DNA of 64,000 nt from the NCBI RefSeq assembly GCF_024397855.1, contig NZ_CP073343.1:248001-312000 (forward strand). Direction: 5' to 3'. Positions 44,923 through 51,592 of this stretch are shown here, in pieces. The stretch comes from Marinomonas rhizomae (GTDB lineage Bacteria; Pseudomonadota; Gammaproteobacteria; Pseudomonadales; Marinomonadaceae). How positions within the stretch are numbered: position 1 is the first letter of the stretch; every line of letters begins with the position of its first letter. The translations under genes and the position numbers were made by a program. Under the pieces are notes generated by a model. That model was given only the letters and a program-made list of their open reading frames with translations. It searched no databases and was not told where the DNA came from.

Positions 44923-45714
44923 ATGTTAGATCTTTTACTGAGAGCCTTGTTTGGTGGGTTAGGTGTGGCGGCGGTCGCTGGGCCGCTAGGGGCCTTTGTT
45001 GTGTGGCGACGCATGGCGTATTTTGGTGATACCTTGGCGCATTCTGCCTTGTTAGGCGTGGCGTTAGGCTTTTTATTCGACATCAACTTGAATCTTGCCA
45101 TTATTGTGTTGTGTGTGGGTTTGGCCTTGGTGCTGGTGACGTTGCAGAAGAAGCACATTATTGCCACGGATACTTTGTTGGGGATTTTGGCGCATTCCGC
45201 TTTGTCGCTTGGTCTAGTGGCGGTGAGTTTCCTCGATAACATTCGCATCGATTTGATGGCGTATTTATTTGGTGATTTGCTGGCGATTAACCAAGCCGAT
45301 GTGTATTGGATTTATGGCGGTGGTCTGGCGGTTATCGCGCTATTGGTGACTTTCTGGAAGCCATTGCTCGCCGTTACCGTAAACGAAGAATTGGCAAAAG
45401 TAGAAGGTTATCCGGTAGAGGCGATTCGTTTATTGCTGATGTTGCTGGTGGCTTTGGTGATTGCCGTGGCGATGAAAATTGTCGGTGTGTTGCTGATTAC
45501 CTCTTTGATGATCATTCCCGCAGCAACCGCACGGAAGCTGTCGAAGACGCCGATTCAAATGGCGTCGTTCGCTAGCTTGATTGGTTGTCTGTCTGTCTGT
45601 GGCGGTTTGTGGGCATCTTACCGCTGGGATACACCAACTGGGCCAAGTGTCGTTGTCTGTGCCGCTTTGTTGTTTTTGATCGCTTATACCTTGCCGTTTA
45701 AGCGTTTGCGTTAG
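44923..45714 (+). CDS. znuB: Zinc ABC transporter permease
   Basis: 263 residues with about eight membrane helices of the metal-type ABC-3 permease family. AAVAGPLGAFVVWRRMAYFGD at the N-terminus and the EELAKVEGYPVEAIRLLLM coupling segment are characteristic. It forms the inner-membrane channel of ZnuABC. It follows znuC by 38 bases, and a strong terminator (45741-45773) ends the operon. Confidence 0.93.
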   Translation: MLDLLLRALFGGLGVAAVAGPLGAFVVWRRMAYFGDTLAHSALLGVALGFLFDINLNLAIIVLCVGLALVLVTLQKKHIIATDTLLGILAHSALSLGLVAVSFLDNIRIDLMAYLFGDLLAINQADVYWIYGGGLAVIALLVTFWKPLLAVTVNEELAKVEGYPVEAIRLLLMLLVALVIAVAMKIVGVLLITSLMIIPAATARKLSKTPIQMASFASLIGCLSVCGGLWASYRWDTPTGPSVVVCAALLFLIAYTLPFKRLR

Positions 45715-45773: not shown

Positions 45774-45872
45774 ATGGTAATTATGTGTACAAGGTTGTAA
45801 GAAATAGGCTGCTTTCAACGTCTAAAGTAGAGAAATCGACAGATCGACATTATTTATAAAAAGAGGTTCTTC

Positions 45873-47501
45873 ATGCTAGGTTTTAAGAGTATTCGAGGTC
45901 GTTTAAGGACGAGTTATTCAATCTTGCTGGTAATGTTGGTGCTGGTGATGGTGTTGGCTGCTTCTCGTTTCCAGCTGCTATCGCACAATATTCGCGGTAT
46001 TGTTGATGAAAATGCGGCTTTAGTGGAGCTAACTGGCAAATTGAATGTAAATGCCGAAAGTTTAGCTAGCCGTTTACTAATGTTATTTGTGTTAGAAGAG
46101 CGCGATGCGCGAGTGGCCATTTACAAAGAGATTGATGAGCGTAATAAGCGTTTAGATGACAGCCTAGAAAAAATGGCGATTCTGGTGCAGACAGAAAAAG
46201 ACCAATTAATCGTTACTGGCCTACAAACTCAGCGTAAAGTATACCAGGCTGCACTTCAGTCTACGGTTGAAGCATTAGAATTTGGTGAACTTGAAGATGC
46301 CAAAGCATTGATGGCAGGGCCGACTCGTAATGAATTACAGACGTTTTTAACGCAGGTTCAGGCGTTGGCTGAGCGGGAATTGGAGGCAATGCAAACTCGT
46401 CAGCAAGAGGCGCTGTCTGAGTCAGATTTAGCTATTTGGTTGATATTTGGCGTGGGAGCTTTTGCAATTTTTATTGGTGTTGTGATGTCAGTACTGATTA
46501 CTCGTAGCATTGTGAACCCGCTGAATTACGTTATGGCATTGCTAGATAGGTTTGCACGAGGTGATCTTTCTCAAGCAATTTCAGCAGATCAAAAAGGCGA
46601 AATAGGCCAGCTCTTGGATAGTGTAAAACGTATGCGAGTGAGTCTAGCAAGTGTGATTGATAAAATTGATAAAAGTGCTAAAACCGTAGTGGGTGTCGTC
46701 CGTGAAATACACGTCAGTGTGGCGGACGTGCAGCAGGGCTCTAATACACAAGCTGCAATGGCAAATGATATTCAAGCGTCAGTGAGTGAACTATCAAATG
46801 CAGCTCATATAATGGCCGACCATGTGAGTGTGTCTCGTAATCAAGCGGAAGCAGCTCATGATCTTGCAAAACATGGTAAACAGGTCATTACTTCAGCCGC
46901 TACTGATATCACAGCGGTCGCATCTTATATTGAAGAAACGTCACATGCTGTTGCGAAATTGAATCAAAGTGCCAGTACGGTTACTGACTTCGTAAACAGT
47001 ATTCGTAACATTGCGGAACAGACCAATCTACTCGCCTTGAATGCTTCTATTGAAGCCGCCAGAGCGGGAGAAAGTGGTCGAGGTTTTGCTGTTGTGGCTG
47101 ACGAGGTACGGAATTTGGCAACCAATACGGCCGAAGTGACGGCGTCTATTGATACCGTGATTACAACAATTGGTAGTTTATCTGTACAGATCTCGGATGA
47201 AATGGGAGTGGGGCAAGAAAAAATGCGCCAAGGCGTTGCTCAAATCGAAGATGTTATCGCCCCTCTGAGCCAGCTAGAGAAAGATTCGGCCAAGTCATTG
47301 GAAAGTCTGGACGGTTTGTCTCAATTGGCTCAACAGCAGGCTATAGAGGCCAATGAGATTGCTGAGCATATAACACGGATTGTCGAAGTGACGGCGAGTA
47401 ATGAACAAACATCGAAGCGTTTGAGCAAACTGACGGACACCTTGTCTGGAGCAGCAGACCAAACGGACGAAGCAACATCGACTTTTACCTTACCTCAGTA
47501 A
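45873..47501 (+). CDS. Methyl-accepting chemotaxis protein with four-helix-bundle sensor
   Basis: 542 residues. One membrane helix (about 13-33), a helical periplasmic sensor (about 35-185) of the 4HB_MCP type, a second helix (about 188-212, [20 protein letters not shown]), a HAMP linker, and the signalling domain with [20 protein letters not shown] and [15 protein letters not shown]. Methylatable Glu/Gln heptads flank the tip. Sensor ligand unknown. AGAGG precedes the ATG. It sits between the zinc operon and the convergent DoxX/bufferin operon, with a terminator at 47542-47573. Confidence 0.9.
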
Positions 47502-47541
47502 CGTATTGCGTAGATAAAGAGGGTGTTTTTTGGATGATAAG

Positions 47542-47573
47542 AAGCCACTTTTGGGAACTAAAGTGGCTTTTTT
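47542..47573. terminator. Bidirectional terminator between chemoreceptor and DoxX gene
   Basis: AAGCCACTTT (47542-47551) and AAAGTGGCTT (47560-47569) with an 8-base loop, then TTTTT. It ends the chemoreceptor transcript and, on the other strand, the bufferin operon. Confidence 0.8.
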
Positions 47574-47576
47574 ACG

Positions 47577-48062
47577 TTAGAGTGAATTAGAGTGTTTTCT
47601 GAAAAACAAGTGATCAAGCGATAGGTTGCCCGCCCCTTTGTACATAAGCAGCATTGCAATAGCCAACCAAGTGGCGTGGGTTGGGTACGCATCAGGATAC
47701 ACAAAAATCTGAATGACCAATGTCATACAAGCTAACGCAAAGGCCGCTAGGCGAGTAAATAGACCCGTTAGGATGAGGATGGGTAAAAAGTGTTCAGCCA
47801 AGGCTGCAAGAATCGCCGCAATAGCTGGAGGTAAAAGAGGTAAATTGTATTCGTATTCAAAAAGAAAGACAGCGGATTCTGTTAGGTGTGGCCAGCCTAA
47901 CTGCATTTTCATGGCAATAATATCCAGTGAAAAGCCTTCTATTTTTGTTTGCCCTGATTTCCAAAAGACGGCAGCAATGGCAAATCGAGCAATAAATAGA
48001 ATTATGGATTCTGGTATTTTTTTAAACACACTTTCGCTTTTATTCACTAAAAAGGACACCAT
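47577..48062 (-). CDS. DoxX-family membrane protein of the bufferin operon
   Basis: 161 residues, four membrane helices, the DoxX pattern with FIARFAIAAVFWKSGQTKIEGF at the start and HFLPILILTGLFTRLAA in the middle. DoxX proteins act as small membrane redox or quinone-linked components in various pathways. It is the last gene of the DUF2282-MNIO-DUF2063 operon, 27 bases after bufC, and homologous loci often carry a DoxX gene there. It may support redox steps or export of the mature peptide; that is inference. Confidence 0.85.
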   Translation of the reverse strand: MVSFLVNKSESVFKKIPESIILFIARFAIAAVFWKSGQTKIEGFSLDIIAMKMQLGWPHLTESAVFLFEYEYNLPLLPPAIAAILAALAEHFLPILILTGLFTRLAAFALACMTLVIQIFVYPDAYPTHATWLAIAMLLMYKGAGNLSLDHLFFRKHSNSL

Positions 48063-48089
48063 CTTCCACCTTCCTGTTTTATAAGTTGA

Positions 48090-48845
48090 TTACACCGTTA
48101 TTTCGGTGATTTTAATGAGTAACTTCCACTCAATGAGTTTTGCAAGTGTGCTGCCTAGGTCGAAAGATTCGGAGTGAGGCACCGCATTTTCAAGTGTTTT
48201 ATGTTGTAATAACGCATGGAGAAAATATTTTTCATCTTCGCTGATAATATAAAAAAACCCATAAAGATCAGATTTTGAAAGAAGTAAGTGCTCAGTTTTA
48301 TTTATAGAGATACTACTCATGGATACTCGAGTATCTATTTGGTGAGCTTGGTAAAGCGAGCCAATGGCGAAACTAGACGTCATCAATTGGCAGTTTGGCG
48401 ACAAACCTAATACTAAATTGCTTGGGTCTGTTGTTGCTGCAAAAGCAGCAGAAACATCATGATGTTCAAGTGTGTTGTATTCAGGCGCATTGGTGAGTAA
48501 CAGCAAGTTCCTTTCTAACGCTGAAAGGTCGGCTAAATATGGCAGACTTTGTGTTGGTTCGAAATGCCGTATAAATTCAGGAAAATCGTCGCCATATTCA
48601 CTGATAATCGGGCTTTTGGGTGGGTTGTGAGTAATGAACTCTCTTGTCATGGCACGAAAGAAATTTTCCCCAACTAGCATTTGGGTAACAGGAAAAATGT
48701 CGGCGAGAGCATCGATTAATGACACATACATATTATTTCGATAGACATTTAAGCGAACGTTCCTTTCTTCCTCTGAACTTGCCTTTATCTCAGCATAGAA
48801 AGCCTTGTCTTCACTGAATAAAGTTTCTTTAAACTGTGTGTTCAT
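48090..48845 (-). CDS. bufC: DUF2063 partner protein of the MNIO enzyme
   Basis: 251 residues. The N-terminal half has the DUF2063 pattern: RLNVYRNNMYVSLIDALADIFPV and RAMTREFITHNPPKSPIISEYG, then FPEFI. The C-terminal half is less conserved. Proteins of this group bind the precursor peptide and the MNIO enzyme during peptide maturation. The start overlaps the end of the MNIO gene by 17 bases, typical translational coupling for the pair. The gene symbol follows the published bufferin nomenclature for related loci and is applied here by inference. Confidence 0.85.
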   Translation of the reverse strand: MNTQFKETLFSEDKAFYAEIKASSEEERNVRLNVYRNNMYVSLIDALADIFPVTQMLVGENFFRAMTREFITHNPPKSPIISEYGDDFPEFIRHFEPTQSLPYLADLSALERNLLLLTNAPEYNTLEHHDVSAAFAATTDPSNLVLGLSPNCQLMTSSFAIGSLYQAHQIDTRVSMSSISINKTEHLLLSKSDLYGFFYIISEDEKYFLHALLQHKTLENAVPHSESFDLGSTLAKLIEWKLLIKITEITV

Positions 48846-49731
48846 GGTCGTATTCCTGACGGATATGAGTGCGTATTCTATTTGCGTGATTCGCTTCCAT
48901 TATCAAATCCTCGATCTGCGGTAAATTTCCATCGCGCTCAATTAACGTTGGGCAATCGCCCATACGGCTTAGTATGTGTTGATATAAGTGCCAAACATCA
49001 CGGGATACGGGCTCATCATGACTGTCTATTTTTAATGGTGTGATTGGATTTTGGTCGATGGTATGACCCGCAAGGTGAATTTGCTGTACCGCATTTGTGG
49101 GAAAGCTATCTAGATATTGGTATGGATCAGTTTGATGATTAAAACATGATACTTCTACGTTATTCACATCGAGCAATAAACCGCAGCCAGTGAGTTTTGC
49201 CATAGCCGTAATAAAGTCTATTTCGCTGCGATCACTGCGTTCGAACTCGAAATAGGTTGACGGGTTTTCAATGAGTATCTGACGTTTTAGTATGCTTTGT
49301 AATTGATCAATATGATCACACACACGTTGTAATGTAGCAGCATTATACGCCACGGGCAGTAGGTCATTTAAAAATGCGTTATCGTGGGTTGACCACGCTA
49401 GATGCTCTGAAAAAACTTCAGGTTGTGTCTCGTCTAGTAATAGAGCAACGCGTTTTAGATGTTCTTTATCTAATGAGTGCTCACTACCGATGGACAGGCC
49501 AACACCATGAACAGTAATGGGGTAGTGCTCTCTTATTTTGTGCAAGTAGTGCCGAGCAGGGCCGCCTTTGCTCAAATAATTTTCTGCGTGAATTTCAAAA
49601 AATCCCACATTGGGTAATTCGGTTAAGATGGTTTGATAGTAAGCTGATTTTAAGCTTACACCTGTGTGCAAATCGAAGCTTGAAGGCACATGGCCTTCAG
49701 CTTGCGAAATGTTTTGGCCTGAATATGACAT
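48829..49731 (-). CDS. bufB: MNIO-family (DUF692) multinuclear iron RiPP-modifying oxidase
   Basis: 300 residues from the ATG at 49731, 17 bases after the precursor stop; longer readings would overlap the precursor gene. Family blocks are intact: FFEIHAENYL, VHGVGLSIGS, FSEHLAWS, LIENPSTYFEFE, LLLDVNNVEV, IHLAGH, DSHDEPVSRDVWHLY and LIERDGNLP. The His, Glu and Asp residues of these blocks build the iron site. MNIO enzymes oxidise cysteine side chains of a precursor peptide, for example to 5-thiooxazoles. Position between bufA and bufC fixes its likely substrate as the DUF2282 peptide. Confidence 0.92.
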   Translation of the reverse strand: MSYSGQNISQAEGHVPSSFDLHTGVSLKSAYYQTILTELPNVGFFEIHAENYLSKGGPARHYLHKIREHYPITVHGVGLSIGSEHSLDKEHLKRVALLLDETQPEVFSEHLAWSTHDNAFLNDLLPVAYNAATLQRVCDHIDQLQSILKRQILIENPSTYFEFERSDRSEIDFITAMAKLTGCGLLLDVNNVEVSCFNHQTDPYQYLDSFPTNAVQQIHLAGHTIDQNPITPLKIDSHDEPVSRDVWHLYQHILSRMGDCPTLIERDGNLPQIEDLIMEANHANRIRTHIRQEYDHEHTV

Positions 49732-49748
49732 GTTATTAAAAGTCTTTC

Positions 49749-50024
49749 TTAGAAGGCTTTTAATTGGCCGTGGCCTGTTGGGGAGGTTGTAGACTCCATA
49801 TCTATGCAAGTGCCAGCAGGGACTAGTTTCCACGCATTTGATTGGTAGTCAGTTTTAGAAGTGCCTGCGCAAGAAGTGCCTGGGCCTGCAGCACAATCAT
49901 TTTGACCAGCAAGTGCAACGCCATAGCATTTTTCTTTACTTGCGGCTTCTGCTGGTACAGCAACGGCTGAAAGGGCAATCGCAGTACCAAGTGCAAGAGA
50001 TAAAGACGCTTTAGTATTTTTCAT
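49749..50024 (-). CDS. bufA: Bufferin-type (DUF2282) RiPP precursor peptide
   Basis: 91 residues. A Sec signal peptide ([20 protein letters not shown], cleavage after about residue 27) precedes a short mature part with four cysteines (Cys33, 44, 52, 73): [26 protein letters not shown] and AGTCIDM. This is the DUF2282 pattern of bufferin-1 precursors, whose cysteines are oxidised by the MNIO enzyme and then bind copper in the periplasm. The role here is inferred from motif and operon. A strong ECF-type promoter lies about 60 bases upstream. Confidence 0.92.
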
Positions 50025-50085
50025 GGGTAATCCTTATGCAATATAAAATAGAAAGACAGATAAAATCTGTTAGTTACCCTTGTCT

Positions 50086-50111
50086 GACGTTAGAAGTTTA
50101 AACTTTATTAC
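50086..50111 (-). promoter_or_regulatory. ECF-type promoter of the bufferin operon
   Basis: On the minus strand GTAATA (50111-50106) and CGTC (50089-50086) are separated by 16 bases, the same elements and spacing as at 50986-51011 upstream of the sigma gene. Transcription would start near 50080 and give a leader of about 55 bases to bufA. Confidence 0.65.
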
Positions 50112-50120
50112 ACAAAAAAA

Positions 50121-50327
50121 TTATTTTTTATCTGATTGTTTTTTATTTGATGGTTTTTTTTGTGTATAAGATCGAGATAACTCACGGATTGCTTCCATTT
50201 GTTTACCAAATTGACGACACGGTCCACAGATCGCCGTATGCATGGCCAAGTTTATCTTTTCTTTGGCGGATAAAGGGCGATCCAGTTTCTCAGAGAGCAT
50301 CTGAGTCGCTTGTTTGCATTTAATCAT
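50121..50327 (-). CDS. Small zinc-binding anti-sigma factor
   Basis: 68 residues, soluble, with the zf-HC2 pattern MHTAICGPCRQFGKQM (His and two Cys, about residues 29-36) and an N-terminal cysteine (Cys4), like ZAS-type anti-sigma proteins. It starts directly after the sigma gene stop (TAA then ATG), so the two are translated together. It should bind and hold the ECF sigma factor until a metal or redox signal releases it. A Lys-rich tail ends the protein. Confidence 0.82.
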   Translation of the reverse strand: MIKCKQATQMLSEKLDRPLSAKEKINLAMHTAICGPCRQFGKQMEAIRELSRSYTQKKPSNKKQSDKK

Positions 50328-50957
50328 TTACGACATCTCCTTTTGAAACCAGTGGTCTTCTAGACATTCTCGTAAGCGGAGCCGAGCGCGATACAAGGTG
50401 ACGTTTAGGCTGCTAACGGTTACTTCTTCGTTATGGCAGATTTCAGGTGTGTCCATTTCGAGAAATTCGCGCATCATAAATAATCGGCCGTACTTGGCTG
50501 GTAGCGCGTCCAAACAAGCATCGAAGATTCGCCAGAAGTGCTCGTTTTCAACACCATGTTCTGGTTGGTCCCATTTTTTGGGCCGCTCATCTTTTTGCCA
50601 ATGCCCATTTTCCTCGAACAAGTGTTCTATTAACGCATCGCCATTTAGGTTAGGCCCGTCTTCAAGCTGACTGGCTGCCGTGTGGCGTTTTTCCTTACGC
50701 AACAAATCGATAATTTTGTTCTTTAAAATGGAAAACACCCAAGTCTTAAACGCGGCTTGTCGCGCAAAACGATCAATATTTTGATACGCAGAGATCATCG
50801 CTTCTTGTACTGCGTCTTCGGCAATCTGATTGTCTCGAACTTGAAGCCTTGCGAACTTCAGCATCTGTGTACGTAAATCTTCAATAAAAACAGTATCCTG
50901 AAAGATATTTACTGCTGCTGAAGAATCTATTTCAACAGAAACATTCGCATTAGTCAT
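50328..50957 (-). CDS. ECF RNA polymerase sigma factor
   Basis: 209 residues with region 2 (ARLQVRDNQIAEDAVQEAMISAYQNIDRF and FKTWVFSILKNKIID) and region 4 (ALPAKYGRLFMMREFLEMDTPEI, then VSSLNVTLYRARLRLRECL). There is a fairly long linker between them. It is the first gene of the sigma/anti-sigma pair; an ECF-type promoter lies just upstream (50986-51011) and a matching one precedes bufA, so it should activate itself and the bufferin operon. Sigma factors next to DUF2282/MNIO genes are known to respond to copper in other bacteria. Confidence 0.93.
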   Translation of the reverse strand: MTNANVSVEIDSSAAVNIFQDTVFIEDLRTQMLKFARLQVRDNQIAEDAVQEAMISAYQNIDRFARQAAFKTWVFSILKNKIIDLLRKEKRHTAASQLEDGPNLNGDALIEHLFEENGHWQKDERPKKWDQPEHGVENEHFWRIFDACLDALPAKYGRLFMMREFLEMDTPEICHNEEVTVSSLNVTLYRARLRLRECLEDHWFQKEMS

Positions 50958-50985
50958 TTAAGCCTCGGAGTGTGTGTGGTCATTA

Positions 50986-51011
50986 GACGATCTTGGTCTG
51001 GCTTTTATTAC
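50986..51011 (-). promoter_or_regulatory. ECF-type autoregulatory promoter of the sigma gene
   Basis: On the minus strand GTAATA (51011-51006), 16 bases, CGTC (50989-50986). Same layout as the bufA promoter. Transcription would start about 20 bases before the sigma start codon. Confidence 0.6.
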
Positions 51012-51034
51012 TATTTTAACCGTAATTTTTCTAT

Positions 51035-51592
51035 CTATCGGCTTATTTCGGATTCAGCTTTTGCTTCAGCCAAGTACTCGTCTTTCAATTTAACGTAATT
51101 AAGTCCGGCATATTGAAAGTATTCGATTTCTTTGGCGTTAAGTGGACGGATTTGCTTAACAGGGGAGCCCATGTACATAAAACCGGTTTCTAAACGCTTA
51201 CCTGGTGGCACCAAAGAGCCAGCGCCTATGATAACTTCATCTTCAATCACTGCGCCATCAAGGATGGTGGTTCCCATGCCCACTAAGACTCGGCTGCCAA
51301 TGGTACAACCGTGCAACATCGCCATGTGACCCACTGTCACATCGTCGCCAATTTCCAAAGGGTGGCCTTCAGGTTTGTAGGTACTGGCATGAGTAATGTG
51401 CAAGCAGGAGTTATCTTGAATGCTGGTGCGAGCACCAATACGAATGCGATGCATGTCGCCACGGATCGCCACCAAAGGCCAAACCGAGCTGTCTTCGCCA
51501 ATGGTGACATCGCCAATGATCACTGCATTGTCATCGACCCATACACGGTCGCCTAGTTGTGGTGTTTTGCCACGGAAAGATTTCATCACCAT
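51035..51592 (-). CDS. Gamma-carbonic-anhydrase-like acetyltransferase-fold protein (YrdA type)
   Basis: 185 residues of left-handed beta-helix made of hexapeptide repeats (VIIGDVTIGEDSSVWPLVAIRGD, then IQDNSCLHI). The zinc histidines expected for the family appear in CLHITHAS (about residue 70) and GHMAMLHGC (about 90-95). YrdA/CaiE-type proteins are annotated as carbonic anhydrases or transferases, with the in vivo role rarely known. It is divergent from prlC with about 165 bases between. Confidence 0.87.
   Translation of the reverse strand: MVMKSFRGKTPQLGDRVWVDDNAVIIGDVTIGEDSSVWPLVAIRGDMHRIRIGARTSIQDNSCLHITHASTYKPEGHPLEIGDDVTVGHMAMLHGCTIGSRVLVGMGTTILDGAVIEDEVIIGAGSLVPPGKRLETGFMYMGSPVKQIRPLNAKEIEYFQYAGLNYVKLKDEYLAEAKAESEISR

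Follow-up and report, generated by a model that had tools for sequence, protein, structure and literature searches.

A Buf1 bufferin operon of Marinomonas rhizomae as a probable accessory branch of a small ECF sigma/ZAS regulon

The window analyzed in this study is a stretch of 64,000 nucleotides (positions 248,001 to 312,000 of contig NZ_CP073343.1) from the 4.37-Mb, single-contig genome of Marinomonas rhizomae. A six-gene set spanning 47577-50957 on its minus strand comprises genes for an extracytoplasmic function (ECF) sigma factor and a zinc-associated anti-sigma (ZAS) factor, followed by a bufferin gene set. In the order of transcription, the genes are the sigma gene (50957-50328), the ZAS gene (50327-50121), bufA (50024-49749), bufB (49731-48829), bufC (48845-48090), and doxX (48062-47577). 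The original prediction had placed the six genes at these positions, and their families were confirmed with Pfam and NCBIfam models. The sigma factor (209 amino acids) matched Sigma70_r2 and r4_2 of Pfam and scored above the cut-offs of NF009196 and TIGR02943 of NCBIfam. The anti-sigma factor (68 amino acids) matched zf-HC2 and NF052368 above the cut-off and reached 75.7 bits against the NCBIfam antisigmaE subfamily (cut-off, 50); no membrane segment was seen in it by eye. Its three matches to solved structures were weak (E values from 0.016 up to 0.88, the latter for RsiW) and were set aside.

BufA, a precursor of 91 amino acids, belongs to the Buf1/DUF2282 family (PF10048, E value of 7e-26) and begins with a typical Sec-type leader, as judged by eye. 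Its four cysteines (positions 33, 44, 52, and 73) were all kept in 34 of the 34 homologues found among 80 loci. In Buf1, modification takes place on the two central cysteines, and a disulfide joins the outer two (PMC12452194; here and below, statements taken from the literature refer to passages of the papers cited). BufB is an MNIO enzyme (formerly DUF692; PF05114, E value of 9e-102) that scored 363.6 bits against the NCBIfam model of the bufferin maturase type (MNIO_BufB, NF050167; cut-off, 310) and is related to the solved structure 3BWW (E value of 2e-43). We judged the ATG at 49731 to be a better start of bufB than that of a longer GTG frame. The bufC gene, which overlaps bufB by 17 bases, encodes a DUF2063 partner protein (PF09836, E value of 3e-24), and doxX follows (PF07681, E value of 1e-16); both products passed the Pfam cut-offs, whereas they fell below the cut-offs of the NCBIfam Hvf models. 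The genome contained a single DUF2282 match and a single MNIO match. By gene content, bufA-bufB-bufC-doxX is a Buf1 bufferin operon, and the bufferin set recognized originally was thus borne out by the family matches and the four cysteines. Thiooxazole modification and copper binding of the BufA product are predicted properties only.

A bipartite element precedes both the sigma gene and bufA. Motif scanning and conservation located a predicted sigma-gene promoter, GTAATAAA-N14-CGTCTAA, at 50983..51011 and a predicted bufA promoter, GTAATAAA-N14-CGTCAGA, at 50083..50111, both on the minus strand. This pair had been described as GTAATA-N16-CGTC, a form that was indeed present at the two sites and nowhere else in the window (two matches, 0.03 expected). 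When the genome was scanned for the literal form, as had been proposed, seven matches were obtained, five of them outside the locus, against 11 for the reversed control; the literal form was thus not enriched and was ruled out as a genome-wide marker. In contrast, the refined form GTAAKR-N15/16-CGTCWRA gave 14 matches against one for the reversed control, and the tighter form GTAAKAA-N14/15-CGTCWRA, which was derived from 80 records of the region surrounding the sigma gene, gave seven against none.

Conservation was scored with the tighter form by counting as a match any site with at most one mismatch, and shuffled upstream regions that preserved base composition only were used for comparison. 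The near loci of the sigma gene were L010-L041 and L044 (33 loci of Marinomonas, Maribrevibacterium, and Vibrio), and the more distant ones were L043 and L045-L089 (46 loci); L042 was incomplete and was left unscored. The element was found upstream of the sigma gene in 28 of the 33 near loci, starting 50-70 bases ahead, and upstream of bufA in all of the Marinomonas loci (24/24), starting 68-154 bases ahead, whereas none of the shuffled regions (50 per locus) passed. With all loci taken together, it preceded the sigma gene in 28/79 and bufA in 24/34. The spacer letters changed between species, whereas both boxes were constant. The -10 box ended as CGTCTAA in 24 of the 28 sigma sites and as CGTCAAA in 19 of the 24 bufA sites, the window being CGTCAGA at the latter. 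On the minus strand of 47400-51100, the sole sigma-70-like match lay inside the sigma gene, and none stood directly before the sigma gene or bufA. These results support the prediction, already made from the window, that both bufA and the sigma gene itself are driven by the sigma factor through a bipartite element, and this element is conserved in Marinomonas.

Variants of the element were also observed elsewhere. In distant loci, GTAA...CGAC stands before bufA (L056, L057, and L072) or the sigma gene (L076, L083, L085, and L088), which may reflect a -10 box that has shifted among family members. The Vibrio locus L038 has two bufA copies, with GTAATAGA-N14-CGTCAAA upstream of the first and a further occurrence downstream of the second (6836 and 7649). 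In Acinetobacter nosocomialis (L048, position 3912), GTAATAAA-N13-CGTCTAA lies about 420 bases ahead of an MNIO frame adjoining the sigma/ZAS genes; this locus gave no match to the BufA of the window.

Each of the seven tight-pattern sites in the genome of M. rhizomae was situated upstream of, and facing, a gene. The seven genes encode the sigma factor, BufA, a chemoreceptor, an MsrA with a leader, an ATP-binding cassette (ABC) binding protein, a VTT-domain protein, and RecJ; the recJ site lies 198 bases upstream and is reported for this genome only, with no claim of conservation. The predicted chemoreceptor promoter, GTAAGAAA-N14-CGTCTAA (45797..45825, plus strand), was detected by the motif scan within the window and had been overlooked earlier. 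It precedes a gene for a methyl-accepting chemotaxis protein (45873..47501, plus strand) with a 4HB_MCP_1 sensor, HAMP, and MCP signalling domains according to Pfam, which is convergent with doxX. The other seven of the 14 matches to the refined form had weaker -35 boxes, five lying inside frames of more than 200 amino acids and two being intergenic and lacking a suitably oriented downstream gene; they were put aside as probable chance matches.

Among 17 Marinomonas genomes, 66 matches were obtained against 19 for the reversed control. Of the 59 matches in the 16 other genomes, 38 were located 50-205 bases before the genes for the binding protein (13), the sigma factor (8), BufA (7), MsrA (6), or the chemoreceptor (4). 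One further match preceded an MsrB gene, and two each preceded genes for a DUF547 protein, a VTT protein, a VTT-flavin oxidoreductase, and an uncharacterized, membrane-like protein of 129 amino acids (the DUF547, 129-amino-acid, and VTT-flavin loci being L137, L146, L144, L188, L180, and L181). In a gene-first search, the element was found before 10 of the 14 genes for MsrA with a leader, one of which (G376) carries a stop codon inside the match, whereas it was found at none of nine copies of a diverged second MsrA (39-42% identical). The chemoreceptor gene had an orthologue flanking 13 of the 80 loci, all 13 with bufferin genes, and the element preceded 11 of the 13 orthologues in other loci. 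Membership of the regulon, as given here, was computed from the motif.

It is very improbable that the paired motifs arose by chance or are a housekeeping feature unlinked to the sigma factor. The literal form, rarer than its reversed control, would fit such an origin, whereas the enrichment of the refined form and the constancy of the boxes before orthologous genes in many species speak against it. The diverged MsrA copy serves as an internal control, and the lack of the element there argues against a chance motif; the position of the only sigma-70-like match, inside the sigma gene, likewise disfavors a housekeeping feature.

The gene for the ABC binding protein (G000:C1:1857979-1859251; L216 and L232) matched NCBIfam PRK11622; downstream of it, a long frame resembling a membrane protein and one resembling an ATPase were recognized by eye. 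The binding protein presumably resembles YnjB. The element stands before this gene in 15 of the 17 Marinomonas genomes, that of M. rhizomae included, although several Marinomonas species lack bufferin genes beside the sigma gene.

The residues Cys4, His30, Cys34, and Cys37 of the anti-sigma factor form a ZAS pattern (His30-x3-Cys34-x2-Cys37), which was found downstream of the sigma gene in 78 of the 80 loci. Among the positions tested in MseR of Neisseria meningitidis, Cys4, Cys34, and Cys37 matter and His30 does not (PMC3240639, PMC2893595). In Haemophilus influenzae, an msrAB reporter is activated by RpoE2, and hypochlorite (HOCl) induces a homologous DoxX cluster in an RpoE2-dependent manner (PMC7907618). 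Because MsrA is a conserved target and hypochlorite induces the Haemophilus relative, we judged by analogy that a chlorine-type oxidant is a likelier signal than copper alone.

The locus had first been regarded as self-contained, with the sigma factor serving only itself and bufA and being released by a metal (copper) acting on the Cys/His anti-sigma factor. The adjacency of the sigma, anti-sigma, and bufferin genes and the match between both promoters are in keeping with this view, as are reports that the SigF operons of Caulobacter answer chromium and cadmium and the gig operon of Cupriavidus answers copper and gold (PMC3511200, PMC10304878). On the other hand, conserved sites also precede the genes for MsrA, the ABC binding protein, and the chemoreceptor, among others, and hypochlorite is what induces the nearest characterized ZAS relative whose inducer is known (PMC7907618). 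Furthermore, seven of the 33 near loci (M. foliarum, lutimaris, polaris, UCMA 3892, alcarazii, and pontica, and Maribrevibacterium) have the sigma and ZAS genes and no bufferin genes within the stretch covered. In M. foliarum, which has the closest named sigma gene found (99%), znuB follows the ZAS gene almost directly, and the element is kept at four sites, before the genes for the sigma factor, MsrA, the binding protein, and a VTT protein. The sigma regulon thus appears to exist without a bufferin. Because of the further conserved sites and the persistence of sigma/ZAS in species without bufferin genes, the self-contained reading was too narrow, and we consider it unlikely.

We regard it as fairly probable that the Buf1 bufferin operon is one accessory branch of a small ECF sigma/ZAS regulon that responds to an oxidant-type signal. 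For transcription, signal, protein location, and chemistry, we infer the following course. In the unstressed cell, the ZAS factor would hold the sigma factor through a site formed by Cys4, His30, Cys34, and Cys37. Thiol-reactive stress, most probably reactive chlorine or a similar oxidant and possibly excess copper in addition, would disturb this zinc-thiol site and free the sigma factor, which would then transcribe from GTAAKAA-N14/15-CGTCWRA promoters, including that of its own gene (positive feedback). Further targets would be the bufferin operon, the neighboring chemoreceptor, the MsrA with an export leader, and the ABC transporter, along with a small number of other genes. Once exported, BufA with its cysteine-derived heterocycles made by BufB and BufC would buffer periplasmic copper, and MsrA would repair oxidized methionines alongside it.

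Several observations weigh against this interpretation. None of the three Vibrio loci passed at bufA (mismatches of 2, 2, and 4), L038 being scored at its second bufA copy with a near match standing before the first. At the sigma gene, more than one mismatch was found in five of the 33 near loci, and none of the 46 more distant loci passed; likewise, four of the 14 genes for MsrA with a leader had more than one mismatch. Some of the 66 motif sites are due to chance, given the 19 matches of the reversed control, and nine of the 59 sites in other genomes lie inside genes and three in intergenic regions with no recurrent gene. Several of the genomes are closely related, and the counts are not independent. 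The consensus of 24 sigmaE promoters of N. meningitidis reads GTMAGBWTT, 12-13 bases, CGTCTAAH (PMC2893595), and outside GTAA the rest of the -35 box found here (GTAATAAA/GTAAGAAA) departs from it. As for the signal, the meningococcal MseR system is unresponsive to peroxide, diamide, and singlet oxygen (PMC2893595, PMC3240639), and bufferin-type operons elsewhere are induced by copper, gold, chromate, or cadmium (PMC3511200, PMC10304878), so that the signal may still be a metal.

A history can be added that is compatible with the accessory-branch interpretation, namely that homologous recombination transferred the bufferin set from one lineage of Marinomonas to another and that the set was captured by a resident sigma/ZAS pair acting as a general regulator of periplasmic methionine oxidation. 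In comparison with M. foliarum, the DNA identity on the znuB side was 98-100% below 45400, 97% at 45400, 95% at 45500, and 78% at 45600-45699, where the alignment stopped. On the other side, identity was 100% over the sigma promoter and the beginning of the sigma gene, 90-98% over the remainder of that gene, and about 90% over the ZAS gene, after which the alignment also stopped. Quick trees grouped prlC of the window with those of M. foliarum and M. alcarazii, both without bufferin genes, whereas bufB was grouped with that of M. profundimaris. A grouping of bufB with the five species of the prlC clade that carry bufferin genes was rejected by the approximately unbiased test (p 0.005). Import of the block by homologous recombination is likely from these sequence comparisons. 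The full account of movement and capture is more tentative, and we would put it at slightly less than an even chance. The trees would be explained equally well if the set had been lost in the foliarum group and later re-imported, or if it had been lost several times. The drop in identity on the sigma side is modest, one bin inside prlC being lower still (86%), the tested group was picked after the prlC tree had been seen, and the support of the 12-row prlC clade was only 85. Moreover, three Vibrio loci hold the sigma, ZAS, and bufferin genes together, so that the association is older than the Marinomonas import.

If the proposed regulon is correct, a ZAS-run sigma factor would co-express a copper-buffering peptide with an enzyme that repairs methionine sulfoxide, an ABC transporter, and a chemoreceptor dedicated to this response, and the cell would buffer copper, mend oxidized proteins, and swim from (or sense) the same stress. 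The conserved element defines a testable regulon in which methionine repair, a chemoreceptor, and an uncharacterized ABC transporter are linked with a Buf1 bufferin. No paper describing the combination of a bufferin, an ECF sigma factor, Msr, and a chemoreceptor in Marinomonas was found among the top matches listed in the open literature.

The operon is probably an accessory target of a regulon resembling those of Neisseria sigmaE/MseR and Haemophilus RpoE2. The resemblance is seen in the promoter cores, the anti-sigma ligands, and the Msr target, and the sigma factor itself matched general family models. Compared with the Neisseria sigmaE-MseR system (NMB2140-NMB2145), the GTAA and CGTC cores and their spacing are alike, and the sigma promoter of the window has the full -10 box, whereas the -10 tail at bufA does not fit CGTCTAAH. 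An anti-sigma factor with Cys4/His30/Cys34/Cys37 and a methionine sulfoxide reductase target (MsrA/MsrB in Neisseria) are common to both, the target being assigned here by motif only. In Neisseria, a single promoter before NMB2140 serves the whole operon, whereas in the window the sigma gene leads and a second promoter is predicted internally, at bufA (PMC2893595, PMC3240639). The peptide of the gonococcus (gonophorin) is reported to be of the EGKCG kind, unlike the DUF2282 precursor of the window (PMC13097082), and in Marinomonas the chemoreceptor and ABC binding-protein genes carry the element. The RpoE2-HrsE system of H. influenzae has a ZAS factor of 67 amino acids, close to the 68 found here, and controls msrAB and a cluster encoding DoxX-like, periplasmic, UPF0276/COG3220, and DUF2063 proteins, which is similar to the present set (PMC7907618). 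Judging from locus tags, that cluster lies apart from the sigma gene, unlike in the window, and its inducer is hypochlorite (PMC7907618); its peptide (oxazolin) is again of the EGKCG kind (PMC13097082).

Buf1 clusters have been associated with another anti-sigma type, NrsF. In a 2025 survey, such clusters are reported with sigma and NrsF genes; in a word search of its main text, zinc, ZAS, and zf-HC2 were absent, and NrsF was the only anti-sigma factor named in the passages. In the genome of M. rhizomae, the NrsF model (PF06532) had no match, and NrsF was rejected as the anti-sigma factor. DUF2282 was present in 97 of 369 gammaproteobacterial genomes, and 80 of the 97 were covered for pairing with an anti-sigma gene at up to 6 kb, with distances between the two genes taken by hand from the coordinates, irrespective of a sigma gene there. 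A ZAS match lay within this distance in eight of the 80 (G000, which is M. rhizomae, G068, G107, G133, G156, G251, G262, and G263) and NrsF in four (G070, G169, G190, and G200, of which G070 and G200 share a genus code). These counts suggest that, in this sample, DUF2282 is accompanied by a neighboring ZAS-type anti-sigma gene no less frequently than by an NrsF gene.

Two identities are assumed below: YedY is presumably MsrP, a periplasmic methionine sulfoxide reductase, and GigA is presumably the MNIO of the gig operon. As in the window, the ECF16 systems of Caulobacter (SigF-NrsF) and Sinorhizobium (RpoE7) have an ECF sigma gene beside a DUF692/DUF2063 operon and a small regulon (PMC3511200, PMC6180224). 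The Caulobacter operon is likewise annotated with DUF2282 and DoxX, and the SigF regulon includes two DUF2282/DUF692/DUF2063 gene sets and YedY, the SigF-dependent operons responding to the two metals mentioned above (PMC3511200). The ECF16 anti-sigma factor is the six-helix membrane protein NrsF, in contrast to the ZAS factor found here (PMC3511200, PMC6180224), and the RpoE7 promoters listed read GTAAC...CGAA, whereas those of the window read GTAATAAA...CGTC and are not of the ECF16 type (PMC6180224). In Cupriavidus, gigPABT-rpoQ-rsqA similarly combines a small periplasmic GigP, a DUF2063 protein (GigB), and a DoxX-like GigT with an ECF sigma/anti-sigma pair; unlike the present locus, it is divergently arranged with a predicted membrane-bound anti-sigma factor, and it is inducible by copper and gold, with no RpoQ-dependent gig start shown in the passages concerned (PMC10304878).

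For the role of bufferins and their inducing signal, these reports point to metals as well as oxidants. It is a possibility to which we incline a little less than to its opposite that Buf1-kind bufferins are less stand-alone copper detoxifiers than one arm of a periplasmic methionine-oxidation response, and that their coupling to Msr arose more than once. Such coupling would run via ECF/ZAS in Marinomonas, Neisseria, and Haemophilus, and via ECF16/NrsF in Caulobacter.

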